From the NCBI GenBank assembly GCA_032622095.1, contig CP136061.1, positions 34,725,797 through 34,789,796 on the forward strand: a stretch of 64,000 bases of DNA, written 5' to 3'. The notes beneath the pieces were generated by a model. The model did no database searches. It was given only the letters and a program-made list of their open reading frames with translations, and was not told where the DNA came from. Every line of letters starts with the position of its first letter. The first letter of the stretch is position 1. Of the stretch, positions 33,990 to 62,880 are shown piece after piece. The translations under genes and the position numbers were made by a program. This DNA comes from Siphonodentalium dalli (taxonomy: Eukaryota; Mollusca; Scaphopoda; Gadilida; Siphonodentaliidae).

Positions 33990-34790
33990 AAACAATAATA
34001 TTAACCAGTTCACACACTCATGCCATGTCGTTCTATCTACATCTTTTCTGCATTAATATTTTATCTGATTAAAAATCATCCTCTTTTGTGGAAGTAAAAA
34101 TTGTCTCCTCTTGCATTTAGTTGCGTAAAGCGCCCCTGGTGTGTTCCTTAACTGTCCTGGAGAAGCCCTTCTATTTGGTGATGACCGAAGTGTATGGCTC
34201 TGTTTATCTGAACTATTTTTTATTAAATAAATAAAAAAAACAATTAAAATAATCTCACTGTGGGCCTCGCAGTGGGTAAATGTGCAAAAATTATAATTCT
34301 GTAAATATATCACAAATAAGAAATTTGGAGAAATAGATCACATCTGTTATTATATTAATTGGCGTACAAAAAAATACCTTTAGTATCCCCTGAAAAGGGT
34401 TTTATGTTCGGCTGCACATATCCATGGATCTGTGTAGAAGTAATTGGTGTAAAGATGCTAGCAATCCTCGTCATGAGATAGATTAGAGCAACCATGATCA
34501 CCGCCGTGGCAAACGCGATAAACTTTTCATTAAACTGCATCGTCTGAAAAATAGTTCAGATAAACAGAGCCATACACTTTGGTCATCACCAAATAGAAGG
34601 GCTTCTCCAGGAAATTTAAGTAACCCACCAGGGGGCGCTTTACGCAACTAAATACAAGAGGAGACAATTTTTACTTCCACAAAAGAGGATGATTTTTAAT
34701 CAGATAAAATATTAATGCAGAAAAGATGTAGATAGAACGACATGACATGAGTGTGTGAACTGGTTAATATTATTGCACTGGTTTGGTGTA
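33990..34790. repeat. Inverted repeat, arms about 200 bp
   Basis: 33,990-34,216 is the reverse complement of about 34,549-34,780 at high identity ('attaatattttatctgatt', 'gcgtaaagcgcccctgg', 'ccttctatttggtgatga'). A third copy is in plus orientation at 38,330-38,548. The loop holds the minus-strand ORF at 34,540-34,355. Confidence 0.9.
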
Positions 34791-35790
34791 ACACGATTGT
34801 AAAACGAGAACCTTTGGTTCGAGTTCTACATCGCGGCCATTCGGCAAACCTCGTCAGATTCCGTCACCGTTTCAGACTCGGCTTTGATACGACGACATGA
34901 TTGGTTCGAACTATTTCACGTTATGTTTAGGTCAGTGCCTGTGTCAAGTACAGGCGCGCCAATTTGAATTAAGTTGTATTCCGTCGGTTCATGGGTACGA
35001 AAACATTTACATTTAACGTCGAATTAAACAATATAAAAGTGTTGTCTTACAACACTGATATAGAATAGTCCACAAAATATCTATATGAAATTACCGCATG
35101 ACCTAAATTGACTTTTGTAGACAGGTCCAATAGCACAATTGTTGCGAGATGACACAATTGGTACGATGTGATGCAGATTTGCCGTTGTCGGTCATAACAT
35201 ACACCGTAAATTATCAATTGCATTAAAATCGGATGGTTGACCCATGTTTCCGGATATTTGGTGATCAAAGAACACGACCATACATAACTATTGGATCGAG
35301 TAATTCGTCAAATAACACAACGCGTAAACGGACTATTTTATGCGGAACGTCGGACATAGAGTAGTGACATATTTCTTCTGGATATAATCATCCGCGAAAA
35401 ATGAGTTCTAATTGCACCCGAGAGCTTGGCCCCAGATGTCATAGGTCGAGGAGTCCAGAAGGCATCGGTGCCTGACAAATGAGTGTGATAACGTTAACAT
35501 TTTCATATAACTGTTCTGTTCTATGTTTATTGCACACTCTGAAGATTGTAGCTTGTGATACGCTGATATTTAGGTCGATATGTGCTCTAAACGGTTTACA
35601 AGGTAAATGTTGGTACACACCTTGCGATAAAATAAGTACATGCAAGTAATCTAAAATAAATACATAGCATATAAGATCATCTCCATGTAAGTGCTAACAG
35701 TTAAAAACAATAGCAAAGGAAACAGTTTGCGGATGTGAGAAATAAATACAAATCAGTGAAAAATAATTGGGAAGAAGTATGAACCAAATT
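34258..35790 (-). repeat. Left arm of a large inverted duplication
   Basis: Read on the minus strand, this segment is collinear with 37,955-39,300, with two differences. It has about 0.6 kb extra (about 34,830-35,440) that includes a family C fragment, and it lacks about 0.48 kb corresponding to 38,700-39,177. Confidence 0.85.
34355..34540 (-). pseudogene. Fragment of a type II membrane protein-like gene, copy 1
   Basis: This is a 61-codon minus-strand ORF. It begins MQFNEKF, followed by a hydrophobic stretch (about residues 8-30, with AVIMVALIYLMT), then a Ser/Thr- and Pro-containing stem (ITSTQIHGYVQPN). A short N-tail, one membrane span and a stem is the layout of Golgi type II enzymes, but no catalytic part is present, so that is only a suggestion. 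The ATG is preceded by 'ctatttttcag' in the paralog and a similar tract here, resembling a 3' splice site. Compared with the copy at 38,552, three extra codons (an in-frame 9-nt difference) and a few substitutions are seen. After 'KPFSGDTK' the frame runs into sequence that in the paralog lies 0.48 kb downstream, so this copy has an internal deletion. Confidence 0.4.
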
Positions 35791-35809
35791 TTTTCCGTTT
35801 TTTGCAAAT

Positions 35810-36245
35810 TTGTTCCAAATTAGATTGGATGAATATTTGTTATACGCCCTTTTGAAAAAAGGTCGTATTATGTAATCAGTCCGTCCGTCTGTCCGTCCGT
35901 TAACATTTCTTGTTTCCGATCGATAACTCCAGTTTGGATTATTTATCTGAACCAAAGCTGCTATGTATATTTCACAGCTAAAAATACAAGCCAAGTCCGA
36001 ATATGGGTTCCGTCCGATCATTTTTACATGAGTTACGGCCCTGTTTCGACTTAGAATTTGACCGATTTCATAAACATTTCGGTTTCCAACTGATAACTCC
36101 TGTTTTCATTATTTTATCTGAACCAAAGTGGATATGTGTGTTTCCCAGCTAAAACTTCAGGCCAAGTTCGAATATAGGTTATGTCCAATTATTTTCACAT
36201 GAGTTACCACCATTTTTCGACTTAGAATTTGACCGCATTTTGGCA
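35810..36245 (+). repeat. Repeat family F, two units of about 165 bp
   Basis: After 'acgcccttttgaaaaaaggtcgt' (a short hairpin) and a 'ccgtccgtctgtccgtccg' run, two units share 'gataactcc', 'attatttatctgaaccaaag', 'cacatgagttac' and 'cgacttagaatttgaccg'. Confidence 0.8.
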
Positions 36246-37329
36246 ATGAAATTCGAGGTATGTCAGATATTCTTTGTAAGCTCAAATTATTATTTTATTT
36301 TGCGGTAGTACAATTCGAAATGGCTAAAATGCGTATTTTACCACGCCCTAGCGATTATCCTGTTACACATTATATTACTAATGGGAATGACGTAATCCAC
36401 GAAGACTCCCCCTACCTTCATATTCTGTATCTCTCGTGTGGTATCCGAACTCTATTGTAGATTCAATTTTAACTGAAACATATCAAAGGGATGTTGTGTG
36501 TAATAATACAAAACGAATGAGTGTAAGAACTGAGAAGCAATCTACATAACTCACAGAAACTAAATAATCACATTTCGCTCGAGCTTGAAAACACTTTCAT
36601 CTGAACAGTGGACATTAAGATGGAGATGCACGTTTTGCATAAATACAGCCAAATATGGCAAGGGATTTTCAACAAAGAATTTTCTGGATCAATCTGGCGA
36701 AAAATCTTGAATTTCACATATCATCATCTTCATTGTTTTCAGAAGCTGGTCAATTATTAAGATGTGACAAAAACAATGGATTTTAATACATTTGAGAGGT
36801 TGAAAATATTATTTTCTTTGTTGTCCCTTTCGGTACCGAGAACTGCTAGAATAATTAATAATTTCACACAAAACTCCAATCACCAAACAGCTTATTGTCT
36901 TGGCTCCATGAGAGGAGGCTTCATTTGTATCATTATGTGGAGTTCGATTTTTAATAATTGCATAATATAGTGTCATACCCCCATATATTAAATGAAGAAT
37001 AAAGCAGTCACAAATATTCCAGCCCAATGAAAACAAATGTTGATATGCTGTGTTGTCCACTCAAGCAGTGCACAATCAACTGGAAATTAGGCCACTGTGT
37101 TAAGATATATGGTGGTCAGCTTTAATTTGGTTATTAAGTCATGACCTAGAACTCATCTCAGCCCAATTTTTCATTGAACAACATGAATGACATGAAAATT
37201 CTCAAATATTGAAAATGATGTGTGAGTAGTTGTCTTTCTACGTGAAAATAATCATAAAATTTCATGAATCAAGAAAAATGAAGTCTCCTCTCATGATCTT
37301 CAGATATAATATCATGGATATATGGACTG
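36246..37329. other. AT-rich sequence in the spacer of the inverted duplication
   Basis: No gene is recognised. Around 36,600-36,860 there is faint similarity to family D ('gcacgttttgc', 'ggtaccgagaactgc'). Confidence 0.4.
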
Positions 37330-37570
37330 CACTTTTGAAACAAATCTAATTTACAGAAGTTCTTGGTACCTGAAAACGGTGAAATTTTAAATATTTCCCA
37401 TGCCATAAAAGTGAAGTAAATGAGTTTATAATAACCAATTGTTTGATGGTTCTTAAATATTGTATCAAAATAATCGCTTTTACCAAATTCACAAATAAAT
37501 TCCATGTAGATTTTGAGAAATTCCATTTAGAAATACCAGGAAATTTTGGCATCTGACCCTTAATATATAC
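37330..37570 (-). repeat. Interspersed repeat family D, copy 1
   Basis: The minus strand shares the phrases 'ccaaaatttcctggtattt', 'caattggttattataa' and 'ttttatggcatg' with the plus strand at 50,686-50,910, over about 220 bp. Confidence 0.8.
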
Positions 37571-37954
37571 AACAATACAGCCTGAGTAACTAATGACACT
37601 GAACTTTTATCTTCCCAATGCAAAATGAATTATGATATCTTACACCCAAATTCAAAGCTGTTGATTGATTGATTTGAAATGTAAATTATCTGAAACTGAG
37701 TTGTGGCACAAGAAATTTCTTATTACCTGACTGATTGAAACCATGAGCTCAAGCTAGACCAATATCTCATTAGTTGATTCTATTGCGATATTAGTGTATT
37801 TATTATTTCTCTTCTAATACCATCACATACAAATGGGTGAATCCCATATATGGTCAAAAGCAAAACATTATCATACGTGCCTGAACATTTGTTCCTTGAT
37901 CTTAACTAATTCCGTTTCATATGGCTCAGTGTTTTAGTACTCGCGTGCATATTG

Positions 37955-39300
37955 TTTCATACTTTTTCCCAATTTGTTTTCACTGATTTGTATCGATTTC
38001 TCACATCCGCACACTGTTTCCTTTGCTATTTTTTTTAAGTGTTAGCACTTACACGGAGATGATCTTATATGCTATGTATTTATTTTAGATTACTTGCATG
38101 TACTTATTTTATCGCAAGGTGTGTACCAACATTTACCTTGTAAACCGTTTAGAGCACATCTCGACCTAAATACCAGCGTACTACAAGCTACAATATTCAG
38201 AGTGTGCAATAAACATAGAACAGCACATGTTACCGCTGTCACACACTCATTTGTCATGCCGCTAGGTAGAAATCGAACCAAAGGTTCTCGTTTTACAATC
38301 GCGATACAACAAACTTGTGCAATAACATTAACCAGTTCACACTTATGTCGTGTCGTTCTAACTACATATTTTCTGCATTAATATTTTATCTGATTAAAAA
38401 TCATCCTCTTTTGTGGAAGTAAAAATTGTCCCCTCTTGCATTTAGTTGCGTAAAGCGCCCCTGGTGGGTTCCTTAAATGTCCTGGAGAAGCCCTTCTATT
38501 TGGTGATGATCAAAGTGTATGGCTCTGTTTTACTGAACTATTTTTCAGACGATGCAGTTTAATGCAAAGTTTGCCACGGCGGTGATCATGGTTACTCTAA
38601 TCTATCTCATGACGAGGATTGCTAGCATCTTTACACCAATTACTTCTACACAGATCCATGGATATGTGCAGCCGAACATAAAACCCTTTCCACGGGATAA
38701 CAAGAAAACCATAATCAGAAATGGTAACGCCCTCAAGATTATATTATTACGGATAAATATAAATTATAAAAAAAAATGTTAAATATATTGGTTACATGAA
38801 TGCACGCCTCAGAATTCAGTTAAAACAACTAATACTTCAAATTATTACAAAAAACTACGTCTTATTACTGCAGGTTTCTAATTCACCACACCAGAAGTCT
38901 CTAAATGCGGATCAAAAATCGGAGTCATTGTGTTCCCGCCATAAAATCTTCAACAGTGGTCCAACCATTGTTGATATCTAAACATTGAAAGCAATTAATG
39001 CGGTCATAATAGTTACATACTGCAACTATCAATCCAGCGAATATGATATGATTGATAGAACAAACCACTATTATGATGATCGTGTCAAAACCGGAAAAAC
39101 CGATTATCTATTTATAACACGTCCACAGACACACAGCGATCTAAAATTTGCCCACCAGTATACACCCGATTGGCGTTAATAAAGGTATTTTTTATACGCC
39201 AATTAATATAAGAACAAATGTGATCTATTTCTCCATTATCTTATTTGTGGTGATATATTTACAGAATTATAATTTTTGCACATTTACCCACTGCGAATGC
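37955..39300 (+). repeat. Right arm of a large inverted duplication
   Basis: Collinear with the minus strand of 34,258-35,790, about 95% identical by eye in the best parts. This arm keeps the longer version of the gene-like part (38,552-39,180). Confidence 0.85.
38552..39180 (+). pseudogene. Fragment of a type II membrane protein-like gene, copy 2
   Basis: The first piece (38,552 to about 38,724) encodes a membrane-anchor start like that of 34,540-34,355 (MQFNAKFATAV, then LIYLMTRIASIF). It is preceded by 'ctatttttcag', a good 3' splice site, and followed by a possible donor in 'aaatggtaacg'. A second piece begins at 38,874 after 'cttattactgcag', again splice-like, reads VSNSPHQKSLN and continues in one frame to 39,179 with a single TAA at 38,979-38,981. 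If the apparent sites were used, the pieces would join out of frame, so I read it as a decayed gene fragment. Part of the second piece recurs at 59,258-59,600. I do not recognise the protein. Glycosyltransferase or sulfotransferase is possible from the anchor-plus-stem layout alone. Confidence 0.4.
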
Positions 39301-41208: not shown

Positions 41209-41416
41209 TCACTGAGTCGCGGCCATATTGGATACATCCAGCTCCGTTCCGTGGTTTTAGTGCTACGTGTCAAAGTTCTGGAGTAGCATTTCCATATATG
41301 GAAGTCATGAATATTCAAAAGCTCCATATAAGGAATAGCTACTCCAGAACTTTGAACGGTAGCACTAAAACCACGGGGCTTTATGGATCCCATGCACATG
41401 GCCGCGAGTTAGTGAT
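41209..41416. repeat. Foldback element, arms about 95 bp
   Basis: 41,209-41,305 is the reverse complement of about 41,322-41,416. 'ccgtggttttagtgctac' and 'caaagttctggagtagc' occur in both arms. The ends are tcactgagtcgcggcc and its near mirror. No target duplication could be fixed. Confidence 0.9.
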
Positions 41417-41720
41417 TAAACTTATATTACTTAATCCTGGTTTATTGTGTGTGGGGTAATTTTTTTGTTCTGGTGACCTATGCTTGCAATTAGTAATACC
41501 TGACGCCACTGATTTGAAAAATAATCTGGACATCGTTTCTAATTATAGCCACAGATAGATTTCAAAGGAGATAATGCGTACCTCAGAACCAGCTATAAAT
41601 AGCTATAATTATGTGACATATTTTTGAAAAGAAAAATTATTTATATAACATTTTTTCTATTTCAAATATTGTTTAGCCCTAGCATATCTCTATCAAGGGG
41701 TGGGAGAAGCTTCTTCTACA
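41417..41720. other. Noncoding sequence, no gene recognised
   Basis: AT-rich spacer before the family B element. Confidence 0.4.
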
Positions 41721-42815
41721 TCTATATCTATATTTGCGAATGTCTGTCTGTCTTTCTGTCTGTCTGTATGTGTTCTATATAAATGTACAGGGGACCATCT
41801 AGGTGGCACCAAAGGGGTCTACTAGGGGTAACTTTTTACGAGAAAGATAATGGTGAGGGTTAAGATTTTCTAAAATGAGCCGTTGTTGTCAGGGGCAGAA
41901 AAGTGGGATCGGCAGAAAAAAAAATTGTCGCCGATTGCCACAAAACTTATATATAATCATCCCCATGATATAAGGAATCTGATGGTGTGGTTTAAATGTG
42001 TCATGAGTGGCGCCGTTCGAGTCAGGGATGCACGGAAGGGGAGAGGGACACCAAAATGTATCAACTAAGTTTAGCGTCGAGGGACCATCTAGGTGGCACA
42101 AAACGGTCTACTAGGGGTAAATTTTTACGAGAAAGATATTGGTGTGGGTTAGAACTTTCTAAGTGACGCCGTTGTCAGGGGCAGAAAATGGGGAGGGGTA
42201 GAAAAAGTTTTGCCGCCGATTGCCACGAAACTTTTATATAATCATTCCCATGGTATGAAGAATCTAATGGTGTTGTTTAAATATGTCAAACGTGCGCCAT
42301 TCGCGTCAGGGGTGCACGGAAGGGGAGAGGGGCACTAAAATTGATCAAACTAATTTTAGCGCCGATTTCCACCAAATTGATATCTATTCTTCTCCATGAT
42401 ACAAGGAATCTAATTGTGCGATTTAAAGACTCCAAATTGCTGTCGTTTGGATAAAAGATTGTGGGAGGGGCACTCAATTTGATAATAATGTGCTTAGTCG
42501 CCGATTGCCACCACACTTATACAATATCATCCCCATGGTATGAGGAGTCTAATGGTGTGGCTTAAATCTGTCAAAAGTGGCGTCATTCGAGTCAGGATTG
42601 AACTGAAAGGCAGAGGGGCACCAAAATTGATACGCAATAATTTTAGCGCCAATTTCCACCAAATGATATGCAATCTTATCCATAATACGCGGAGTCTGAT
42701 CGTGTGATTTAAAGACGCCATGTTGGTGCTGTTTGGGTGAGAGATGGGGGTTAGTGGGCACTAAATTTGATCAAAATTGGTTTACCAAACTTATCAATAA
42801 TTATCTCCAGGATAT
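41721..42815 (+). mobile_element. Family B Helitron-like element, left part, copy 1
   Basis: The start is 'tctatatttgcgaatgtctg' plus a run of tctg, a typical look for a Helitron 5' end, preceded by A. It is followed by tandem monomers of about 145 bp of two alternating kinds: 'cgccgattgccaccaaactt' and 'cgccgatttccaccaaattg'. The element resumes at 50,656 after the LINE. No Helitron 3' end was found for this copy. Confidence 0.65.
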
Positions 42816-43453
42816 CTCCAGGATAACTGTACGCATGCGTGTCGATTATGCGGGTGAATTTCTGAATAGTGAGCTTTCATCGACAAAAAACACCCATCAA
42901 AGTCAATTTTGTGGATACATTTTTATACATCAGGGTGCTTCATGCAATCGGACATCGGATTGGTGCTTCGTTTCTTACGATCGGATTCTTATGGACTTAT
43001 TATAGGATTTTATCTCTGAATTTGGAAGGTGACACACCCAAAACAATAATGACCGAAAGTTTTGTTGACAACACAGAACGCGACTCAGCGGAAAATGATA
43101 CCCCACCCATATCGGAAGCTGTATATAAAGGCCTCACGACGATCATTAATGGTTCGCAAATTATCGATAACACTATTGAACACCAACAGAGTGACTATAT
43201 TCCACAATCACAGTACCAATCGCATGCATATGTTTCATCAAATATGTACGCAGGACCAATCAACACAGGTAACGGATTAGATCCGATCAATGCCACGCCC
43301 ACCAATTCAGCGGGTGATTGCGCTATACAAATGACTCAGAGTGTGAATTACGACCAGCGATTTCTAACGGGATCAAGTTACATTCCTAGCCCAGTTCTCA
43401 ATCATTCCGACTTGACGTCACAACAACAACAACAATACAACACCGCGATACTA

Positions 43454-45411
43454 GAGACCTTTCGCATCCTCACGTTTACGATTACGAATACGGATAGCTA
43501 TTCGTAGTCGTAAGTCTATCCGCATGGCCAAAAAGTCCTTTCGCAAAACGACTACGCGTAAGAGTTTTGACGAACACGTACCATCATTATTTCGTACCAC
43601 TTTTACAATTCAAAGCGTGTGTTTGGTATACAGTCCCTTAATACGTCACTTATCGTCTCATATGCAACAATGCGATAATCATGACCTGTTTATATTGTCA
43701 ATAATTCGACCAGTCACAACGTACGACCCGGGATTCTCGTGATATATTATGGCAATACAGGTATAAATGCCAGGTCATATGTGGTGGAAATTCAGTTCGT
43801 TGTTATCATATGGATGACCTGATAGGCGTTATGCTGATGGGGGAAGAGTGGTTCCTAAATTTGGACCTCACATCAACCACGACGCCACCACTTCAAGACC
43901 CTTTCAGTCCGTAATTTCATTTCAACGCGAGTTCTGCAGAAAGACAGTCTAGCCAGATTATGCCATCCCCCACAATTTACGACAGAATTATCCATAATTG
44001 TCATCATTATTATGTAATATGTATGTGCAAGGACGTGGCTAGAGGGTTTCCGTTGGGGGTGTGCACACGACTACGGGCAATAGACCAGGACACACCGGGC
44101 CGATCATGGTTGTTCGGCCCGGTGTGAGAAAATTGTGAAAACTAAACAAGAAAATCGCAAAATCCTAGCATCTAGACTGACCTCAAACTTTCCTAGTGTT
44201 GGAAATTTCAAACCTCATACTCTCCCTTGTTCAGTCAACGATTTTAACCAAATGTAGTAAAATATTGTTTTCTTAAACTCATTAGCAGTTTTTTATTGGC
44301 CACGGGGAGGGACCAGGACACACCGGGCGAAAGTTTTTTTTAAACGTGAACAAGAAAATCGCAAAATCCTGGCATCTAGACTAGCCTCAAGCATTCATAG
44401 AATTGGAAATTTCCAACTGATGACAATTCCAGTGACAATTTTGACCAAATGTAGGACTATATTATTTTCTTAAATTAACTAGAAGTTTTTGACTGGCCAC
44501 GGGGAGGGACCAAGACACAAGCTTTCCCAGTGTTGGAAATTTCCAACCTGACACCCCTAAGGTTGGAAAATTTCTAACTGATGGCCATTTCAGTCCAAAA
44601 TGTTTATCAAAAGAAGGAAAATATGCAAATAAATTCCCCACAATAAGTTGTTTGAAAATCAAACTACAAGAACATTATCAACCTATTGTTGGTGTAAAAA
44701 TTTCCAACTAATGTTGTGTCAGGTATGAAATTTCCAACTGTTGAAAATTTTGACCAAAGTTGGAGGGTGAGAGACCCCTCACCCCCCCCCCTGTCGCCAC
44801 GTCTCTGTGTATGTGTATTGGGAATCAAATATCCTATCCTATCCAGGCCTATCACCTCTTTGGGTTTAGGAAATCAGACATAAGTTTGCTGTGCTCGCTG
44901 ATGTGCATCACTTCTGATTTGTCCTATCAAATCGTAACAAAGTCGACACGGTGATGTTGGTGGGTGTGCCAAATATTCTTTTAGTACCACCAAATCCATG
45001 TCAGTCGTGTATTTTTGGCGACTGGTTTCATAGTGTACTTCTATATAGTACTGCAAAGTGTTGTGTCGCAGCCAGCGATTACTATCCGTTGTGAATAGCG
45101 ATCTTATTTCGCGGGAAGCTCGAGATTCACGACGACGAGTACAGTGATTGTCAATCTAAACAGCACACCGAGGTTGTAGCTCAATACAACTAGATGGTTT
45201 ACATGATATACATATACAGTCTCGAACCGAGTAAAGTGATATATTGCAGAAAATAAATTTCAGGTGTTATTTGAGCTTATTAGAAACCATGAAATCGTAA
45301 CCGTTATTGCGGATAGTAAAATACGACAACGATTAGAAAGTACACAAAGGTTGGTGACGTAGTACCCTATCCGTATCCGTAATCGTAAACGTGAGTTTTG
45401 CGAAAGGTCTC
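43454..45411. mobile_element. 1.96-kb inverted-repeat element with TA target, inside LINE ORF1
   Basis: The left end gagacctttcgca and following bases are mirrored at the right end over about 46 bp (both contain 'cacgtttacgattacg' and 'tacggatag'), with a few mismatches. TA flanks both ends (43,452-43,453 and 45,412-45,413). A TA duplication is typical of Tc1/mariner and some other DNA transposons. No transposase frame is seen, so it is non-autonomous. It contains a family A copy with an internal duplication (44,030-44,810). Confidence 0.85.
44030..44810 (+). repeat. Family A repeat nested in the TA element, with internal duplication
   Basis: 'cccggtgtgagaaaa', 'aaatcctagcatctagact', 'tgttggaaatttc' and the 'ttggtgtaaaaatttcc' core follow the order of 1,385-1,905. 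A block of about 198 bp is duplicated ('ggccacggggagggacca' near 44,298 and 44,496). It ends in a C run and 'gtcgccacgtctctg'. Confidence 0.75.
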
Positions 45412-46669
45412 TACTGTCTCTAAATGATCAACGCGTACCAACTGACATAAAACTTTATCAAGTTATATCAATGTTGCGGGACATAACAGTTAAGGTAAAT
45501 TCAATCGAGGATGTCAAGAGCGAGGTCACCGCCATAAACTACAAACTCTCTGATATGAATTTTGCGGTCGGAGATCTGCAAAGTAGAGTCGGCTGGCTGG
45601 AATCCAAAAATAAAAAGATCTCCGACGAACTGGCCGCTCTGTCAGAATTTAAAGCCAATGTCGCGGATGATATGTGCACGCTGTTCGAAGAAAAATGCTA
45701 AGCTCGATTTGTTGGACGAACGTACCAAATTCGTTCTGGAAAAAGTTACGAACGTCGAAACAAATGTGATGAGAGATGAGCTAGTGTTTACGGGTATACC
45801 ACACGACGAGGATCAGACCACAGATGTGACGACCGAAGACACCTTGGTCGATTTTATTGGCGATAAACTGCGATTAACCAACCACATGGATTTCCACTCG
45901 GTTAGGAGGATTGGGAATTCTAGCATCTACCCCAGAGCAATTCTTGCTAAATTTGTGCGGCAGAAAGATCGGGACATGGTAAAAAGGCAAGCGGCTCGCT
46001 TAGGGGGACAGACTGTTACATACATCAATGAGAACCTTCCAGAGGTAGTCAATACATATAGACAAACAACATTGCAGCCACTAGCAAAGGAGGCTCGCAA
46101 AAAAGGTCTAAAAGCCAATATCCCTCAGGAGATAAACTATTTATAGACAACAAGCTTTTCAGGCCAGAAATCCCTCCACCCTACAGGAGATCAAAAACTC
46201 TGAGTAAGGGGGTCGAAAATAGGCCACATCGTGTCAACCGCCAGAACCGCGGAAGACGGGGAACAACACATCGAGACAGATCCAATGGAAGGAATCTGCA
46301 ACACCAACCAACTGACTTTAATCAGCACCAGCAATCAACTGACTTTAATTCGCGATACCAATCAGCAGGCTACGCAACACATGGATACCCACAACACCCA
46401 ACGAGACATACTCAACCCCCTCATCATTCTCCACCCCACCGCCACTCGTCTTGGCCGCCCCGCTTCCCACTACCTCCACACAACACCCCCTCTGGACAGC
46501 CTCGCTTTCCATCACCCCAACACCCTCCCCTCCCAATCGTACCCAATCGGACCCCGCGCTGACGGAGCCAACACGGACACATCCTAACCCAGGAGGCAAC
46601 CCTCTGCCTGATAACCAGATTGATATAGATCAACCGTTGGGTGACAGGCATCAGGCTGACTCGGGGTAG

Positions 46670-49600
46670 GTGTGCCCGGGAGGGTTCCACCTTAAAGTAC
46701 TGTCCCTAAATGTATGTGGACTATCATCCAGGCTAAATGATCCAGAATTTCTGAGCTATATAACAAACTTCGACATAATAATGTTCCAAGAAACAAAAAC
46801 AGACAACATCGATATAGTCTCGATTTCAATACCAAATTTCCATATCCTTGGCTTCAAAAACAGATAAAAAACGACAATGAAACGCAGATCAGGCGGACTG
46901 TGTATAGCTATTAAAAACGCATACACGGAACATTTCACCCTCATAAATGACGAATGTGAAACCATTCTCTGGTGCAAATACCAGAACGAGAAAGGACACT
47001 CTTACGCAATTGGAAATGTTTATGCACCCTGTGAAACATCAAAATACCATAATGAAAACATTTTCGATTATACACACATTTCAATAATGGACAAATATAT
47101 TTTATTCGATAATGTCATTATAGTAGGCGATTTTAATTCGTGAACCGGCACACTGCATGATAGTACGCACGCAGAAAGACTAATCACAGAGCACTCAGTT
47201 AAATCAGCCCACCCCAAAAGGTACAACCCTGATACTACTGCAAATACATCCGGGGCCAAATTCACCCAACTTTGTAATGATATTGGTATACTTATTTTAA
47301 ATGGCAGGAAAGACGACATTTATACAAACGCGAGATACACGACGACAAACAACAGTGTCATTGATTATCTAGTATGCAGTCCAAAAGTCACCGACAGTAT
47401 AGTAAATTTCCAGGTCAACCATTATAACTGTTTGTTCTCCGACATCCACTCAGCCTTGACATTCGGTATCAACATAATCCGCACCAATAATCCGACCGCG
47501 AGACCTATTGTCAACACGAACAAGCACATACTCAAAAGATACAATGTAACCCACAAACCGACAAGACGAACCGTAATCCGAAATTGGGACAAACAAAAGT
47601 GCGACTCATTCAATGAACGAATTGATCCAACCGCCGTGAGTAAACTTTATTCACAAATGCATGGCAATGAAACCCCACTAACATCTAGTTCTACGGACAT
47701 AGCAAATAAACAAAATAAATAAGTACCATATATGAAGATCTGACATCTATATTAATGAACGCTAGCATAGACGAGAGAAAAAGACCACAGCGTAAGAATA
47801 CCAAAACAACCAGCATGAAGAAGAAACCTCTAGGTATGTCGTGGTTCACGCATGACTGTACACAAACAAGAACACGGTACAGAAAGGCACGGAAAATGAA
47901 CAGAACAAACCCCTGCTCCGAAAATAGAAAAAAAATATTAGAATGTAGAAAAATTTATAAATTGACTCAAAATAACAGTAAACAAAAATTTAGAATTACA
48001 TTTAGGAAGAAAGTACACAATTTAAAGGGTAAGTCTAGTAGGGATTTTTGGCGAGTTATTAGAGAATTAGGCGAAAAAAGGGAAGAATGCCAACCCCAAT
48101 CGAGTGAATTTCAAGAATACTTTGAATCCATGGAGAAAAGTGGCAACGAAACAATAATGGCAAATCTTATCCCTATTTCTGAATTGCCGACAGCGCTGAA
48201 ATTAGATTCGTCCCCCTTAAATATTGAAATAACTTTAGCGGAAGTAGAACATGCAGTAACAAAATTGAAGAATAATAAAGCACCAGGTTATGACTCGCTA
48301 GTAAATGAAATGATTAAGAGTAGCTGGGGAAAGATGGCATTTTTATACACAAAACTTTTAATGAAATACTCGATTCAGGGGAGATCCCAGCAGACTGGGA
48401 GATCGGGATAATACGCCCCATCTACAAAAATAAAAATGACCCACTGAACCCGGATAACTACAGAAAAATCACATTATTATGTACACTATCAAAATTATTC
48501 ACGAGTATACTTACTACCCGATTGAATAACTTTCTGACCACCAACGCCATCCAAACAGAGGCACAGGCAGGCTTTCGCAAAGGATATTCAACAATAGATC
48601 ATACCTTCTCTCTATACGCCCTGACCCAGATTATGAAGATGAAAAATAAAAACCTCTTTTGCACCTTTATCGACTTCTCAAAAGCATTCGATTATGTATG
48701 GCGCGACGGCCTATGGTCAAAACTCATGCGCATTGGAATCACAGGGAAAATTCTGAATGTTATCAAACGCCTATACACAAACCTCAAGATGACCGTGTTA
48801 ACCGATGATTTTTCCGGATACTTCCATCTTCAACAGGACTAAAACAGGGAGATGGGTTGTCCCCGATACTTTTTGCGCTCTACGTTAACGACCTAGAAGA
48901 CTACCTTAAACGGCACGAATGTAACAGTCTGATATTTGGCAATGAAAATGACAATGACGCGGAAATATTACTGAAGCTATTCCTACTGATATACGCTGAC
49001 GACACGGTCCTGTTCTCAAATTCATCACAAGGTTTACAAAACGCGCTTGATTATTTTGCTAATTACTGTGACATATGGAAATTAGATATAAACATACTGA
49101 AGACAAACGTCATGATATTCGGAAGAAAACCAAAAGCGAAAAAAACAATCACTTTTAAAATTAATCGCAACGATATAGAAATTGTTGATAACTTCCGGTA
49201 TTTGGGCACCTGGTTCACGAAACAGGGCACTTTCAGTAAGGACAGAAACATGCGATGCAAAGACGCAAAGAAAGCAATGTATGCCCTCCTGAATAAAGCT
49301 CGGAGATATAGCCTCTCATTTGACTGTATCCTTGAAATATACCAAAAATCCATTGCCCCCTTGATGATATATGGCTCCGAAATTTGGGGATTTGAAATCA
49401 CAACATGCTTCGAAAAACTCGAACGATGGTTCCTTAAATTCAGCCTCCGTCTACGGAAAAATACGCCAACTGCATTCATTTATGGGGAAACAGGCATCCT
49501 ACCAATAAATATAATGATTAAAATCAGGTTTATCTCATACTGGGGAAAAATAGTGAATATGACATGTCAACGGATGCCCCTTCTCTTATATCGCATAATG

Positions 49601-50175
49601 CTAAAAACCCAAAACGAAACACAAAAGAGAAATCCATGGCTCGAATACGTACAAAAACTCTGAATGAACTAGGAATATCGAACATCTGGATTTACCAGTC
49701 AGTACCGAAAATAAATACGTACAACCGATTAATCAAGAACAGAATTAAGGATACTTACCTCCAAGAATGGCGAGGAAGCATTATATCATCGAATAATGGG
49801 ACATTTTATAATATCATTAAACTAGATTTTAAAAAGGAGACATACTTCTCACTGAGAAACCAAAGTGTAGTATTGCGGCTCGCCAAATTCAGAACTAAAA
49901 ACCACCGCCTCCCCATAGAAACCGGATCATGGACAAATGAAAGCAGATCAGATAGAAAGTGCACGTTATGCAAAAGGGAGCTTGGTGACGAATACCACGT
50001 AATACTTAAGTGCCCCATATTGAGCGAACCAAGAACAAAATATTTAAAAAGCTATTATTATACTCGGCCGAACATCTGCAAACTGAACGGCCTTTTCACA
50101 TCAAATAATAAAAGAACAATAACGAATCTGGCGAAATTTATATACGAAGTCCAGCTGAAAATGGAACCTCCCTGA
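46670..50175 (+). pseudogene. LINE ORF2: endonuclease, reverse transcriptase, C-terminal knuckle
   Basis: The APE-type endonuclease is at 46,685-47,480: LSLNVCGL, FQETKTD, NVYAPC, IIVGDFNS and SDIHSAL. It carries in-frame stops at about 46,865 (TAA) and 47,142 (TGA, directly after GDFNS). The reverse transcriptase follows: NNKAPGYD (about 48,275), IIRPIYKNKNDPLNPDNYR (about 48,408), GFRKGYST, motif A CTFIDFSKAFDYVW (about 48,660), GLKQGDGLSPILF (about 48,835), the catalytic IYADDTVLFS (about 48,990) and FRYLGTWF. The C-terminus at 49,640-50,175 has a C-x2-C-x8-H-x4-C knuckle (CTLC to HVILKC). Frame changes occur between 47,722 and 47,755 and near 48,355, 48,825 and 49,645. No ATG begins the frame, and a TAG lies at 46,667-46,669. 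ORF2 would nick target DNA and copy element RNA, but this copy cannot make it. The clade is not assigned. Confidence 0.9.
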
Positions 50176-50655
50176 GGCACAACTCCAATCCAATCTATAT
50201 ATATGTTTATACAGTGTCGAGTATATATGACTCGGAACTTTATTTATTTCCATTGCTACTCGTACTTGTAGGTACATGCTACCCCCCCCCCCCCCCCACG
50301 CACACACAAACAAAACCGCTCACATGTTAAGGAAATTGTCCACTCTATATGACACTCCAAACACATGATTCTCGGCAATCAACTTCCCTATGTATATATC
50401 CAATATAGCGCTGATTCACCCCCCCCACATACTATCCTCAATCTGACGACCCTTTGATCTACCCCCCCCCCCCACATAGTCGCACTCGACTTTCCGCGCT
50501 ATTGATAAGTTTAACATAATTTGTATAAACCTTAATGAGTATATACGCACGCATGTGCAATATCAATATGAATATGATTATGCATGTCCACATCTATATA
50601 TATCTCTATTATGTCAACATGTACGACGATTTGAGATTAATTAAATTCTGATTCT
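50176..50655 (+). other. LINE 3' region and tail
   Basis: Noncoding, with C runs near 50,282, 50,420 and 50,462 that may be assembly-sensitive. It ends 'ttaaattctgattct', a short repeated tail like those that terminate many LINEs. Confidence 0.65.
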
Positions 50656-50910
50656 GATATCAATAGTCTAATTGTGTGGTTTAAGGGTCAGACGCACGTT
50701 TTGCCAAAATTTCCTGGTATTTCAAAATGTATTTTCTCTAAATCTATCAGGAATATCTTTCTGAAATTTTGTACAAGAGATAATTGTGATACCATACATA
50801 AGAATCATTGGACAATTGGTTATTATAATCTCATTTACTTGACTTTTATGGCATGAAAAATCTTTAAAATTTCACTGTGTTCAGGTACCGAGAACTACTG
50901 TAAAACATAT
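50656..50910 (+). repeat. Continuation of family B copy 1, then family D copy 2
   Basis: 'caatagtctaattgtgtggt' continues the family B monomer cut by the LINE. From about 50,686, 'ccaaaatttcctggtattt' begins the family D segment shared with 37,330-37,570 in reverse. Confidence 0.75.
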
Positions 50911-52130
50911 TTTTTTCATATATACACAAGAAAAGAAGATGCATGCATCAGATCGCCCATGAATTATTTTACAAAAAAATAGTCACATATATACATTGGG
51001 GAAATGTTATAAAGTTAATATTATAAATCCATATTTATGAATCTATCAGAACGAGATATCTGATGTACTCACGACCAAGCACACTATGCTTGCATGGTCA
51101 AATTACCCCTAGATATGAAGCGTGATCGTGCATCTACGTGACAATTTGACAATTACATGCTCATAAACGTGGGCTATATGGTTTGCCGATAGATTCAAAT
51201 CATGACATCCAATATGCAGTCGGACAGATGCATGAGGGCTGTACATACCGTATTCCGAAGACTTGAATGATGCAAAGACTAAAATCCAAGACGGATGCTG
51301 AGAAAAGAAACGTCAGCTTATCAAGTTGTCACCACAAATACACATATGCAATTCAAGATATATCAAATAGAACATGCTACCTATATAATCCCACTAGAAA
51401 GAAGAACTCTTGTGTAGTTAATTATATTTATTGCCAAAATTGTGGGGAGCAATGCTCCCCGATGAATTAAAATTCACAATTCGTAACATTGACAATGCAG
51501 TTATAATTAACAGTACTTAGTCACAGTCAGTGAATAAATAAGTAATAAATTGAAGGTTACACACATGTTAGATGGGATGTATTATATGTAGAACCTGTCA
51601 ATTCAACTTACGGTATATAGGAATGAGTAACATAGTAATATATTAATATTACAATCCATGAATTTTTTGGCAAATCTGCCAATACCGAAGGTCGGCCAAA
51701 AAATAAAGTTAAAGTCTATCCTACCTCTACATGTAGGTTGGCGCATCAGAGTTACCATACATAACCGGACGTACGACATGTATGTCGACAACATCTCTCT
51801 GCTCCAAGAAATTAATAATTGTGGCAAAATACATGTAGATGCAAACATAATATAAATGATACATATCATATGATATAACATTAAACCATATATACCGGTA
51901 GATCCTCACAATTGAGTTGAGGAAGGAAATCTATTACTTGCACGAGTTAGACCCTCGAGTCTCACCAAATGGAATTTCCGGCCCGAGGTATCTAACTCCA
52001 GGTCGCTCTCTCACACTACAGTGAAAGAGTCAACCCCAGCAATGAGATACCACCTCAACGCGAAAGTAAAGGCAAAAGTTGTTGAACATACTAGTAGATG
52101 TATACTGATTCTACTGATTCTATTATTACG
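50911..52130. other. Noncoding sequence; hairpin near the retroelement
   Basis: Short frames have no known motif. ggggagcaatgctcccc near 51,443 is a near-perfect palindrome. 'gagttagaccctcg' and 'cgaggtatctaactc' near 51,945-52,000 can pair. This may be the flank or terminal repeat of the retroelement at 52.1-56.7 kb, which is not established. Confidence 0.45.
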
Positions 52131-52131
52131 A

Positions 52132-52650
52132 TTATATCTGCTTTATTAATTGTATGAAGAAATTTCTAAGAATTGATGTGCCTATAAAGTAATTTAGATG
52201 AAGTCCACCGTCCTTTCTTGCATACTTTGACCGATCGGGAATCCCAAACTTTTTCAGAAAGGGTCTATAAGTGTGTCCAAAAGTAACATGTCGTTGTTGG
52301 CAAATTTCTCGTAATTTCTTATTAACTAAGATTACTCTATCCTTGGTAAGGTCATAGTCACAGGGTCTAGGCAGAATAGAGGACATGATTATGTCGACGT
52401 TCAATCCTTGAAGAACACCGATGAGGTTGCCGAAGGCTGACTCAAAGTATCCAATGTTCATGTTCGTAGGAATATCATTGGTGCCTATATGAATTAACAC
52501 ACAATCAAAGGCTTGAATGAATGTCTTGTTTTTCTGGATGAAGGCCGTTAAAAAGTCTATTCTGGCACCTCTAAGACTGTCACAATAGGTCCCATCAATA
52601 TCTGATATATACTTAACGATGGAATCTCCCAATAGATAAATTATCTTCCC
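52132..52650 (-). pseudogene. SGNH hydrolase domain of a YR retroelement
   Basis: The frame reads IIYLLGDSIVKYI (block I with the catalytic serine in GDS), VLIHIGTNDIP (GTND, block III) and KDGGLHLN near the C-terminus (block V with the catalytic histidine). The usual spacing between the catalytic Asp and His is D-x-x-H. Here a second glycine puts Asp one residue further away. The frame has no ATG upstream; it opens after 'tttaattgcag', which resembles a 3' splice site and lies about 18 nt after the recombinase stop. A spliced fusion is therefore possible. The role of the hydrolase in these elements is not settled. The domain itself is intact from GDS to the C-terminus, about 165 codons. Confidence 0.75.
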
Positions 52651-52666
52651 TTTACCTGCAATTAAA

Positions 52667-53437
52667 TCAAAACTTATTTAAGGCAGAAGCCATCATTTTA
52701 GAAACTGAGAGTTTATCAGATTGTGAAAATACCAAATAGGCTTTATAGGCGTCACTAAGCCAGTCACCATGCAGTTGAATTAATTCTGAGGGGACCTGTC
52801 TCTGAAATGCACAGGTAGCTCCGCCTCTCCTAAATGAATGTGAAGAATAAAGCTTAGGGTCCCGATCGGTCAGAGAAATCAAAGCTCGAAGTTTATCAGT
52901 TAGATCACTATAAGTGATCGGAACTAATCTACTCTTTAAGTATTTAACAAATACTGGAGAGCAAGTTGGTGCAGGTATCGATGAAATCATTTTATTATAT
53001 GATAACACTGCATGGACAGTATATAGAACCTGGGATGGCAGTAATGGGTATCTTTAATATTCTTTGTCCGAATTGAATTGTTTTTGACCACCGAATGGTC
53101 ACTACAATTCGGTCTGGGAAACATTGAATGTCACCTCTATGCAATATTTTCTCACAGTCTTTCACTGACCTTGTGGTTGGAACTAGGTTAGATTTTCTGG
53201 CCATAAGGAAAAAGGCTAAAAGAAACAAGCACCAAAAGGTGATATCTAAGTTACAAGTTAAATCCATAAAATATGAAAATTCACGTAGAATATCAGGCGT
53301 TATAGGTAAGGCTTGTTTTGTACAATGCTGTTTCAAGCGCGAAATGCCCTTAATCAAAAGTTTCAAGAAATAGGCATTGAACGCCTCGTAGTCATAATTT
53401 AGAACAATATGCAGATATTTCACTCCTGATAAGGCCT
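52667..53437 (-). pseudogene. Tyrosine recombinase (DIRS/Ngaro type), frameshifted
   Basis: The first part (53,437-52,995) contains LIKGISRLK, PITPDIL and FFLMARKSNLVP, where the arginine is the first catalytic residue. The second part (53,008-52,667) contains SSHSFRRGGAT (the H-x-x-R pair) and GDWLSDAYKAYL (tryptophan in the late position, then the nucleophilic tyrosine). The two parts are in different frames and join near 53,000-53,010. The frame opens directly after 'ttttttgtttag', a strong 3' splice-site look-alike, and runs into SGVKYLHIVLN without a usual start. The enzyme would cut and rejoin DNA through a 3'-phosphotyrosine to insert circular element cDNA. All core residues are visible, so the frameshift is the main lesion. 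Confidence 0.85.
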
Positions 53438-57261: not shown

Positions 57262-57843
57262 AAATGCAATAAAAGTATGTATACCCAACCCATCGACTAC
57301 GCCGCTGTGACCAGCTATGAGGACATACACATGAAATATTCAAACCGACCGGACAGTGTTGCATGTAATATAAGTATACTTAACCCCACCCCCTGTGTCA
57401 CCCCTCTGTGACGATGTGATCAGCCTTGATGACATAGACACGAAATATAAAATAGACCAGACAACGTACAATGAAATATAAAGTACGCACACCCTAACCC
57501 CATGTCGCCACGCCTCAACATGCATGGGACACATTATGACATGTGACACATGCACATGAATGGTTCCAACAGACATGGTCCCATGCAATATAAATGCGCA
57601 CACGCCAATCCCATTTCGCCGCGTCACTCTATGTAACCAGTGGTGAGAACGTGCACATGAAAATGTAAAACATATCCGACAGTGTCACAATCGATATAAT
57701 AAAAAAAAGTACATACTGCTCCCCAACCGCATGTCGCCGTGTCAACACACGTGATGACCGGACGTGAAAACATGCACATGTAATAAAAGACATACAGTCA
57801 GATGCTCGTAGCCCGTTTATATATAACCATGGGTATATGCCAG
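57262..57843 (+). repeat. Family E array, five monomers of 95-115 bp, with terminal motif
   Basis: Each monomer has 'gcaatataagtacgcac' (variants), 'aaccccatgtcgccac', 'atgtgaccag' and 'catgcacatgaaata'. It ends in a 46-bp motif (57,799-57,844) that contains 'agcccgtttatatataacc' and is present, exactly inverted, at the start of the second array (62,882-62,927). The five monomers follow the same order as at 62,938-64,000. Confidence 0.85.
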
Positions 57844-58180
57844 ATATAACCGTACACAAAAAAAACGCCGTTCTTTTGACCGTGTATTTATCCATGGTGT
57901 GTGTGCTTGTGGTTGTCCGTAACCTGGTGCCCGGTGTTATTGCTTTGAAAGGTAATCATGTTCGACTGGTGTTGTTAGATTGGTAATGAGATTAGCGGTT
58001 TCCATGTCTTGTCTGGTCATATTTACTGTTTGAACTTTGTCTGAAATAGACGCACTTTTTATACTAGAATTTGCGCAACAGGAGCGCATGGAAATCGCCC
58101 GTCGAGTTGGTTTAAGGGTTTTTAGAAAAAAGCATTTATATGATATAGAGAGGCCAACAGAACTATACCATATATATATA
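57844..58180. other. Noncoding sequence, no gene recognised
   Basis: Spacer between the family E array and the second family B element, ending in a short (TA)n run. Confidence 0.45.
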
Positions 58181-59257
58181 TCTATATTTGCGAATGTATG
58201 TCTGTCTGTCTGTGTTCTATAGACATTCACAGGGAACCATCTAGATGGCACCAAATGGGTCTAACAGGGGTAACTTTTTACGAGAAAGATAATGGTGCGG
58301 GTTAGAATTTTCTAAAATGACGCCGTTGTTGTCCGTGGCAGAAAAGGGGGGAGGAGCAGAATATTTTTTTGTCGCCGATTGCCACCAAACTTATATATAA
58401 TAATCCCCATGATATTACGAATATAATGGTGTGGTTTAAATACGTCAAACAAGGCGCCGTTTGAGTCAGGAATGCACGAAAGGGGAGAGGGGCACCAAAA
58501 TTGATAAAAAATAATTTTAGCGCCGATTTCGACCAAATTGATACACATTCTTCTCCATGATACAAAGAATCTAATTGTTTGATTTAAAGGCGCCAAATTG
58601 TTGTCGTTTGAGAGATTGGGGGGTGGGCACTAAATTTGATAAGAATTGGTTTAGTCGCCGATTGCCACCAAACTTATACAAAATCATCCACATGGTATGA
58701 GGAGTCTAATGGTGTGGCTGAAAGCTACCAAAAGTGGCGTTCGAGTCAGGGGTGCACTGAACGGGAGAGGAGCACCAAATTTATATTGTGTATTTTTAGC
58801 GCCAATTTCCACCAAATTGATACACCTTCTTATCCATGATACGAGGAATATAATCGTGTAATTTAAAGACGTCATATTGGCGCTGTTTGTGTGAGAGATG
58901 GTATAGGGGTGGGGTAGGCAATATATTTGATAAAAAATGGTTTAGTCGCCTATTAGCACCGAACTTATAAATAATCATCTCCATGATATATCTTGAGTCT
59001 AATTATGTGGTTTAAATATGTCAAAAGTGGGGCCATTCGAATCAGGGGTGCACATAGGGTGAGAGAGACACAAACATTTATAAACATTATGTTTAGCGCC
59101 GATTTCCACCAGATTGATACATTTTCTTCTCCGGATCCGAGGATTCTAATCGTGTGGTTTAAATACGCCTAATTATATAATTATTAAAACAACTAAATGG
59201 TTGAGAGCATCCATGGCTTCCGATTATTGGAAACTAATTATTCATAATTCCTTCAAA

Positions 59258-59600: not shown

Positions 59601-61478
59601 CCGCGAAATTACGTCCGCTAATAAATACATTCTGAAAAAAGTCTAACAGGTACGCACAATGTGAATATGTATATATTAAATGATATTTCCCCCTTAGCTT
59701 CATTGTCAGGCAAAAAAAAAACAGCCTAACGGAATACACCCTATAGAGGGCGTAATGGTTTAGCTCAATCATCGCCATCAAAACCGCCATATTCTCAGGA
59801 CTGCAAGCTTTTCAGCTATACAATATTAGGGGACATTTGTGCCTGATGTTTTCTTGCAGCTTCATGGGAATATGCCATTAGAGTGTACTGGCCTATATAT
59901 TTCAGAATAATTTGTATGAAAACAAAGTCCATCTATTTTCCCATGTTCTTCTTAATAGTGATAAATATAGTTAATCTTAATATAGTTAATTTCTCACGTT
60001 CACCTAGTGTGATTGCCTTACGTGTAAGAAAAGATAAAACGGTACAATCATAACTTTAAGAGTCTTATGTACATGTACAATGAAAAGTGCGTTGTTCAAA
60101 TACATGGCATACTCACGTCGTTCCCCACTTAAATATCGCGGTATTGAGTCTCATCGTCTTTCTCGCGGGTGCAGTCTGGGTTAAGAGTATATCTCAACAA
60201 ATATCTGACAACGTATACACAACACAACAACGGGCACAATAATTCGGACCTCGTTGATAGGATATACTATTTAATTTCCAATTTACACATATATCATTAT
60301 TGACAGTTATATTATATTAAAAATTCGAATGATTTTACATTTTTGGAATAAGTTACGCGAACAGAGCTTTATTTGCACACTTAGCTGTCATAAGGGAGTA
60401 CAATAAGAATTGTTGCGAAATCTCTAGACAGACGAATTACGTACGACCTCATGCATACTCTATTTGTTTACATAAAACAAAACTCCCGATTTAAACTGTC
60501 ATTTGACTGTAATACAGCATTTACGATATACTCGAGTGAGTTGTAAATTGGGTTGTTGACAGTATCCGCCCCAGGCCAAGTGGTCCTGCTAATATGCTAT
60601 GATTATGGTGGTCATGCAATGATGCGGGTAGGGCAAACTGTTGCCGTTATTTTATCTAAAGTTGTAATTTTCGCGGTGTTTTGGCTAATCCGAGCGATTT
60701 GAGAGAAAAAAATCAGTGTGTATATGTAACATTCAAGAACATATAAATATTTGAAAGGCATAATAATGCATGCGAATAACCATCTTGCTTATATTCGATT
60801 TTCAACTAACACAACCAGTACTAAAAATATTTCGCAATAACTATGGTTTTGTATGTTTGATAATCATAATGGCTTTTCCTGTATATGTTCAGATTATCAG
60901 AAAAACCGCGAAAAAGAAATTAAAAACAAAAAACGTAACTTTTTATTAACAGCATCAGTTTGCCATAACAGCATCATAGCAATTCAGCAGGACACAACTG
61001 CATCATAACACATTAGTAGGACCATTTGACCAGGGGTGGTATCACGTTTTTCTTCGAAATATATATTTTCTCAAATAGAACGATTTTCCAAAAAAATATC
61101 GCGATGTATCAACCAATATGATATAGACATAATTATATATCACCGGCATATTCATATAGTGCTGGTTCATGTATATAAGTGTCAGCTTTTCTACCGGAAT
61201 GTTCACAGCGGATATCCAGTAAATTCTGGAACTATGAAAAAAGAAATCCGCAGTTGTAAATAAATAAATACTTCTTTATTAGTGGGACGGATTAATCGCG
61301 ATAAACAGTATGACAATCGCTCCGATCCGACAAGGTGAGCCACTACTGATATTCCATGTTTTGTGATGCTAGTTGGATATACAATTTATGAGAATACGTG
61401 TAACACTTTGAGCAAGAGTATCCTCTATTCCCACCAAATATCCACAGTATGCAAAGGGTTTCACATCACTTTAACCTG
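59601..61478. other. Noncoding sequence, no gene recognised
   Basis: AT-rich. No frame has a recognisable motif. It forms the interior of the proposed family B element. Confidence 0.45.
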
Positions 61479-61502
61479 GGCAACGCCGGGTAACCCTGCT
61501 AG

Positions 61503-61914
61503 TATATACTATATGCGACTGCATCCAATTTGGGTTTATTGTGATATCTTTAGTGTAGTTTTGTGGTTATGAGAGCTCATTTCCCCCTGATTTATGCTCC
61601 ATATGTGGTCTTCTCCTTTAAAATTTATATATGATTTCAAACAGGGGTGGCGCCAGGATATCCCCGACGCAGGGGCTATTGGATTCTCCAAACAGGGGGG
61701 ACGGGCTTTAGCTACCGGGTTGACCATTGAAGATCTCAACGACGGGGGTGGCTATCCTTCCCTGACAGGGTTGGGGATGTAGCCCCCTGACTCCTCCCCG
61801 GGTGCCACGCAACATAGTTTAGTATCGATGATTTCTCGTCTCCAGTGAACACAAGACCGCGCTCTCAGCATGGTGTGCCAAGTAGGGACATGGGTGTTAT
61901 GCAGGGGTCTTAAC
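61503..61914. other. Noncoding sequence with a GC-rich repeat-like segment
   Basis: The segment 61,640-61,810 ('ggtggcgccaggatatcccc', 'gatgtagccccctgactcc') looks like part of a dispersed repeat. No gene. Confidence 0.4.
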
Positions 61915-62475
61915 CCCCCCCCCAAACTGTAGTCAAACCTAATGCAACATTAATTGGAAAATTCACACCAAAATTAGGTTGAAATTGTTCTCGTAGTTTG
62001 ACTTTCCAACAATTTATTAGTGACGAATTTGTTGTTTTTAGACCAACATTTGCATATTTCCCTTTTATTTGCAAAATATTGGACTGAAATGGCAATTTTC
62101 AAGGGTGAGTGTCAGGTTAAAAATTTCCCCGAATTGGAAAGCTTGAGGCCAGTCTAGATGCTAGGATTGTCTAATTTTCATGTTCAGATTTTCGAAATGT
62201 TCTCACATCGGGCCTGACCATGGGCCGACCCGTGTGTTCTGTGCCCTTGCCAGTAGTTACTTTCTAATTAATTTAAGAACAAATTAATCGGGGTGTAAAT
62301 TTGTCTGGCGTTATACGACTAAATGTTAGGATTTTTTAATCTCATACTGGACCGAACCATCCTTTTCATCCCCCTGGTGGCCAGTGGCCACAAGACTATT
62401 GGTCCATTTAGAATAGGCTACCATCTAGTAGTATGTGAGGGAACATTTGGGGGAAATCAAAGCACCGGGGGGGGG
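61915..62475 (-). repeat. Interspersed repeat family A, minus-strand copy
   Basis: The reverse complement of the family A order: the inverted core near 61,950-61,990, then 'gatgctaggattgtc', then 'gaaatgttctcacatcggg', ending with 'gggggaaatcaaagcacc' and a long G run at 62,467-62,482. Confidence 0.75.
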
Positions 62476-62880
62476 GGGGGGGTGTGCACATTGAATTACG
62501 CAAACTTGTGGTTAAATGGGGTGGGCCCGTGGCAGTTGGAAATTCCAAGGTGGAGACCACCCCAACAAAAACCCTCTAGCCAAGTCCCGAGTGCCAAATA
62601 TCCCAGACTCAACCAGGGGTGCCCCTCGCGACTTATAAAAATAGGCCTATTTGTTTTCTCTCCGAGAATACGTTGCACCGGCGGCAATACATTGACCATA
62701 CTCTGAATGAAAACGCTTCTGTTGCAATCACACGGTAACGTCGTGCTGCAAGTTGGACGATAATTGTGTTTTAGAAATGATACGGAAGACCGATTGTCAA
62801 AAAAGGCAACATCAAAATACACAGGGCAATGCTTATCGATCCAAACTGTGGAGTGTGTGTTTCATTGTGTATTTCTCGCA
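62476..62880. other. Noncoding sequence, no gene recognised
   Basis: Begins after the G run. Nothing recognised. Confidence 0.4.

Follow-up and report, generated by a model that had tools for sequence, protein, structure and literature searches.

The nesting of mobile elements has been described across eukaryotes and relative dating by nesting is published (PMC2672092); in the available excerpts of the relevant papers, insertion order is read from which element contains which, a standard method (PMC2672092, PMC5657132, PMC3014933), and interruption analysis has been described for mammals (PMC2517846, excerpt). For the HINEs of the oyster, the accessible text of PMC7492417 describes a left arrangement of a microsatellite followed by repeats, with central tandem repeats that are frequent, not universal. 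A Helentron-associated left part has also been described for mite and Drosophila (PMC4067079, in the part available); non-LTR families of gastropods are the subject of PMC11203168.

Here, we describe a nest of mobile elements in the 41,721-50,910 region of a 64-kb window (the whole stretch of DNA that was analysed), a pattern that is ordinary for repeat-rich genomes. The region 41,401-51,300 was read, compared with the rest of the window and scanned for internal repeats, and each proposed junction was tested; all sequence evidence comes from within the window itself. The nest is real, and its inner three levels are well supported, with small coordinate corrections; the only doubtful layer is the outermost one, the family B repeat regarded as an element. 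An earlier note had described four levels, with each junction backed by a duplicated target or a restored host sequence. The three insertions (the family A copy into a TA-flanked element, this element into the ORF1 of a LINE, and the LINE into family B) and their order were borne out, together with the junction evidence for each of them; the outer ends of B yielded no junction evidence for an insertion, and family B as a bounded Helitron-like insertion reaching to 50910 was not established. The most likely order at the locus is B, then the LINE, then the TA element, then the hAT-like family A copy, a reading that assumes that no inner element came in with its host. The features are as follows, by position in the window.

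41717-42816, plus strand: left part of family B, with an AT-rich start, a GTCT microsatellite and ~145/285-bp tandem repeats
42811-42816 (left) and 50656-50661 (right), plus strand: candidate LINE target duplication GATATC, 6 bp
about 42817-50655, plus strand: decayed LINE (non-LTR retrotransposon), ~5.9 kb without its inserts, with RVT_1 and frame breaks
42866-43453, plus strand: open frame of the LINE ORF1 on the left side of the TA element, 196 aa, counted from stop to stop
43452-43453, plus strand: TA target, left copy
43454-45411, no strand assigned: TA-flanked non-autonomous DNA transposon with 45-column inverted ends containing one gap
44020-44027, plus strand: left copy of the hAT target duplication TGTATGTG, exact 8 bp
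44028-44807, plus strand: family A copy, hAT-like and non-autonomous, 780 bp, with ends CAAGGACGTGGC / CAGAGACGTGGC
44808-44815, plus strand: right copy of TGTATGTG, exact 8 bp
45412-45413, plus strand: TA target, right copy
45414-45701, plus strand: continuation of the LINE ORF1 frame beyond the TA element, 95 aa open, in frame with the left part
46670-50175, plus strand: LINE ORF2 region with an endonuclease-like start, reverse transcriptase and a zf-RVT-like end, containing in-frame stops and frame changes
50656-50684, plus strand: resumption of family B after the LINE, GATATC followed by a match to the expected continuation at 58985-59018
50685-50910, plus strand: segment that the earlier note gave to the right end of B, here a candidate for that ownership, with one other clear copy

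The TA element interrupts the LINE ORF1, as had been proposed, and the restored host sequence is the strongest single proof that this element came later: when the flanks are joined with one TA kept, they form an open frame of 291 aa, stop to stop, in phase 0 only of the three phases. To the right of the junction, the other two phases stay open for 2 and 3 aa, and translation in the left frame straight across the insert meets 43 stops. The limits of the TA element, 43,454-45,411, are exactly as claimed, with TA on both sides and inverted ends whose alignment spans 45 columns, including one gap and three mismatches (score 68). This score was reached by none of 20000 control pairs, for which stretches from the same window at the same spacing were compared by gapped alignment, and the control maximum was 60. 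The gapped control replaced an ungapped TA-plus-TIR scan because the element ends contain a one-base gap; the ungapped scan picked up the element only at an inner TA (43477/45386) and was useless as a control, giving many other matches in the window, mostly in other inverted repeats, and 16 hits in 100 shuffles. The element measures 1958 bp; once the hAT-like copy and one of its 8-bp duplications are subtracted, 1170 bp remain, with no open frame longer than 95 aa, and the element is therefore taken as non-autonomous. A TA target duplication, a feature of the Tc1/mariner type, is present. TA targets are used by other superfamilies too, and the duplication alone is insufficient to fix the superfamily.

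The defining features of hAT elements are an 8-bp target duplication and short inverted ends. Inside the TA element, the family A copy had been placed at 44,030-44,810, and its limits were refined to 44028-44807, where TGTATGTG lies on both sides and the ends match, the terminal inverted repeats agreeing at 10 of 12 positions. Judged by duplication length and ends, we class it as a non-autonomous hAT-like element. A pair rule (an exact 8-bp duplication plus ends at least 10/12 alike, 300-2500 bases apart) was satisfied by five pairs in the whole window, the family A copy among them; three of the other four lie in tandem arrays at 16-22 kb and one at 57450/58044. Under the same rule, the mean over 100 dinucleotide shuffles was 0.14 pairs, 13 of them having at least one, and a shared 8-base run occurred in 29 of 5000 random pairs of 20-base flanks. 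BLAST and a profile, the latter derived from these very copies, place family A sequence at three more positions in the window: 61886-62600 (minus strand), 1311-1932 and 1-166. The match at 1311-1932 consists of two adjoining matches. The copy at ~61.9-62.6 kb, with ends set by eye, has a near duplication, TTTGGCAC / CTTGGCAC, alike at 7/8 positions.

The LINE, at ~42817-50655 (42,816-50,655 in the earlier note), lies inside the family B repeat, as the earlier reading had it, and this junction is carried by the restored repeat, not by the GATATC duplication. A shared run of at least 6 bases occurred in 288 of 5000 random flank pairs, placing the 6-bp duplication within chance, and its left copy sits in an 11-bp tandem, TATCTCCAGGA (42802-42823, by eye), because of which the 5' end of the LINE is blurred. 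The right flank takes up B within two bases of the point where the left flank stops. Of the 127,942 29-base stretches counted over both strands, 30 score at least as high as the 50656-50684 match, and all of these start either at 50656-50657, which is the match itself, or at 58974-59001 in the other B copy. Two gaps interrupt the alignment of the joined B site, one of 2 bases next to the junction and one of 14 bases within the left flank.

The LINE itself is decayed: pieces are cut off by in-frame stops at 46867 and 47143, and the frame changes near 45.70, 46.1, 47.72, 48.4, 48.8 and 49.6 kb; its 3' end consists of two ATTCTG repeats. In a first Pfam search of nine proteins, eight of them from the LINE, its reverse transcriptase was recognized by RVT_1 matches of two pieces (E 3.2e-15 at 56.8 bits and E 1.3e-14 at 54.8 bits; cut-off 29.6). 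A zf-RVT-like C-terminal stretch matched below the Pfam cut-off (E 0.002), one ORF1 piece gave eight weak matches, all below cut-off, and four LINE pieces gave no match. In a second Pfam search of four LINE pieces, three had no match, including two next to the 65-aa piece in which Exo_endo_phos was matched weakly and below cut-off (E 0.05). A PDB search gave no match for one ORF1 piece and one reverse transcriptase piece and a best match of E 0.27 for one endonuclease piece, an Rfam search gave no match at gathering score, and a single-sequence fold of an ORF1 stretch was unusable (mean pLDDT 37.7). By eye ORF1 appears L1-like, which we take as a candidate clade reading only. Outside the window, a pattern for the reverse transcriptase piece matched 4 stretches in viral contigs and 28 in genome contigs, with none confirmed in either, and exact-pattern searches of viral contigs with family B, the start of family A and the end of the TA element gave 0 matches each; the collections searched comprise viruses and prokaryotes, and this null result is uninformative for animals.

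We consider it very probable that a B array was entered successively by the LINE, the TA element and the hAT-like copy, which is the best explanation of the locus. Against it weigh the control rates for the 6-bp and 8-bp duplications, the four other pairs under the 8-bp rule, the two gaps in the joined B alignment and the right end of B, which is a candidate only. The family B repeat, being a short tandem array whose left module is Helentron-like, would already have been in the chromosome when an apparently full-length LINE inserted into one B repeat, presumably by target-primed reverse transcription. A non-autonomous cut-and-paste element would then have entered a TA in ORF1 while the ORF1 frame was still continuous, and a hAT-like non-autonomous element would subsequently have entered the TA element, duplicating 8 bp. 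Junction or restored-sequence evidence in the window documents the last three insertion steps; the mobilising enzymes are inferred, and B is a candidate for a transposed Helentron-like unit.

For the outermost level only, a serious though tentative alternative is that B is a satellite-like tandem array beside an unrelated repeat (50685-50910) and not a mobile insertion; the locus would therefore hold three insertions in an array and not four nested transposons. This alternative is compatible with the proposed insertion order. The two B copies speak on both sides. Identity is 82% for 41717-42080 against 58171-58526 and 81% for 42081-42818 against 58233-58992, two matches that overlap on the second copy since both are tandem. 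The K80 distance between the copies is 0.18 over 728 columns, and the tandem period is 286 at 42214-42771 and 279 at 58367-59174. The copies share a left edge (41717 in one, 58171 in the other), beyond which they no longer match, and the profile detected a diverged match to the B start at 558-803, which argues against a plain array. The second copy, however, stops at 59174 and lacks the right segment, and the other clear copy of that segment (37563-37336, minus strand) has no adjoining B body, both as expected of an array beside an unrelated repeat; a further, marginal profile match to the segment, at 36609-36851, had E 0.023, below the inclusion threshold.

Comparison with the described Helentron and HINE features is similarly divided. 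B contains a GTCY-type microsatellite, TGTCTGTCTG at 41741-41750, 41757-41766 and 58199-58212, and central tandem repeats, and the accessible text of PMC7492417 describes this order, microsatellite and then repeats, for the left part of HINEs, which speaks for a mobile element. In favor of the plain array, no subterminal inverted repeats were found between the B start and its proposed right end (41721-41900 against 50700-50930), a comparison that takes this right end as given and yielded only three exact 8-base matches, two of them overlapping, at left offsets of 120-141. The B start TATATTTGCGAATG had minus-strand matches only at 3 mismatches, none of them within 50685-50910, and a scan of the two right-segment copies for a 3' palindrome, by eye and for the proposed end only, gave weak folds and no common short hairpin. 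A Helitron-like element extending to 50910, as the earlier note had it, is plausible but unproven: the left module, with its microsatellite and tandem array, speaks for it, subterminal inverted repeats were not found for the proposed ends, and the right segment is a candidate end of B.

It is improbable that part of the nest moved as a unit, either as a TA-loaded LINE retrotransposed in trans or as a LINE-loaded B that was copied, in which case the inner order would not reflect what happened here step by step. BLAST detected only this one LINE and this one TA element in the window, which leaves room for preloaded copies, and Helitrons are, according to the available part of PMC7492417, prone to capture and spread genomic sequences. 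Against such a transfer, the LINE looks full length by eye, from ORF1 to the ATTCTG tail, as judged without a consensus, and the continuous 291-aa ORF1 fits an insert that arrived after a working ORF1, while being silent on where this happened. LINE enzymes prefer their own RNA (cis preference). A LINE with a broken ORF1 would therefore be a poor source, and a preloaded LINE is unlikely. Least probable of all, and in our view very unlikely, is that B was a mobile array carrying other elements, so that the LINE and its inserts were dispersed as Helentron-like cargo and not inserted here.

From this nest, one order of activity for four repeat families can be read in the sequence of a genome that, to judge by its repeats, is probably that of an animal, and two non-autonomous families receive base-level boundaries. 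The finding is ordinary and, in outline, sound, and the nest makes no new principle testable, nesting-based dating being already known. Like endonuclease-encoding LINEs, the LINE has a reverse transcriptase, an upstream ORF1, a repeat tail and a sub-cut-off zf-RVT-like stretch, and it differs from them in being decayed and in an endonuclease match that falls below the Pfam cut-off. The family A copy shares with hAT non-autonomous elements the 8-bp target duplication and the short inverted ends, and its class is read from these two features. Family B resembles the Pacific oyster HINE with satellite-like central repeats, as described in the accessible portion of PMC7492417, in its GTCY-type microsatellite and short tandem array, whereas neither subterminal inverted repeats nor a clear 3' palindrome were seen at its proposed ends. 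The classes at the locus are a tandem array or Helentron-like repeat, a LINE, a TA element and a hAT-like element. The containment logic that orders the insertions is the same as in REANNOTATE, TRANScendence and TinT and does not differ in principle, applied here to one locus with mixed classes.

The second long copy in the window of family A, the hAT-like non-autonomous element, lies on the minus strand (61886-62600), and its flanks, TTTGGCAC and CTTGGCAC, form a near duplication, the ends of the copy having been set by eye. Outside the nest of mobile elements, an open frame of 181 aa (52132-52677, minus strand) gave a GDSL/SGNH hydrolase match with an E value of 1.8e-07, slightly under the Pfam cut-off.

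An 11-bp tandem duplication, TATCTCCAGGA, was seen by eye to span the 5′ junction of the LINE inserted in family B (42802-42823). About 300 bases left of family B lies an imperfect palindrome of ~207 bp (41209-41415, 76%), and long inverted repeats are present within 33993-38699:

34384-34837 with 38258-38699, inverted repeat pair, 92%
35470-35787 with 37952-38259, inverted repeat pair, 89%
33993-34220, additional direct copy in this region, 93%

Between 16022 and 26755, a tandem unit of ~138 bp recurs in numerous arrays that are separate from one another.

The start of family B, a tandem-repeat family with a Helentron-like left module, was also matched in diverged form at 558-803 (E 5.4e-08). 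At 61476-61510 we observed CTGGGCAACGCCGGGTAACCCTGCTAGTATA, which we take to resemble the 3′ hairpin end of Helentrons.
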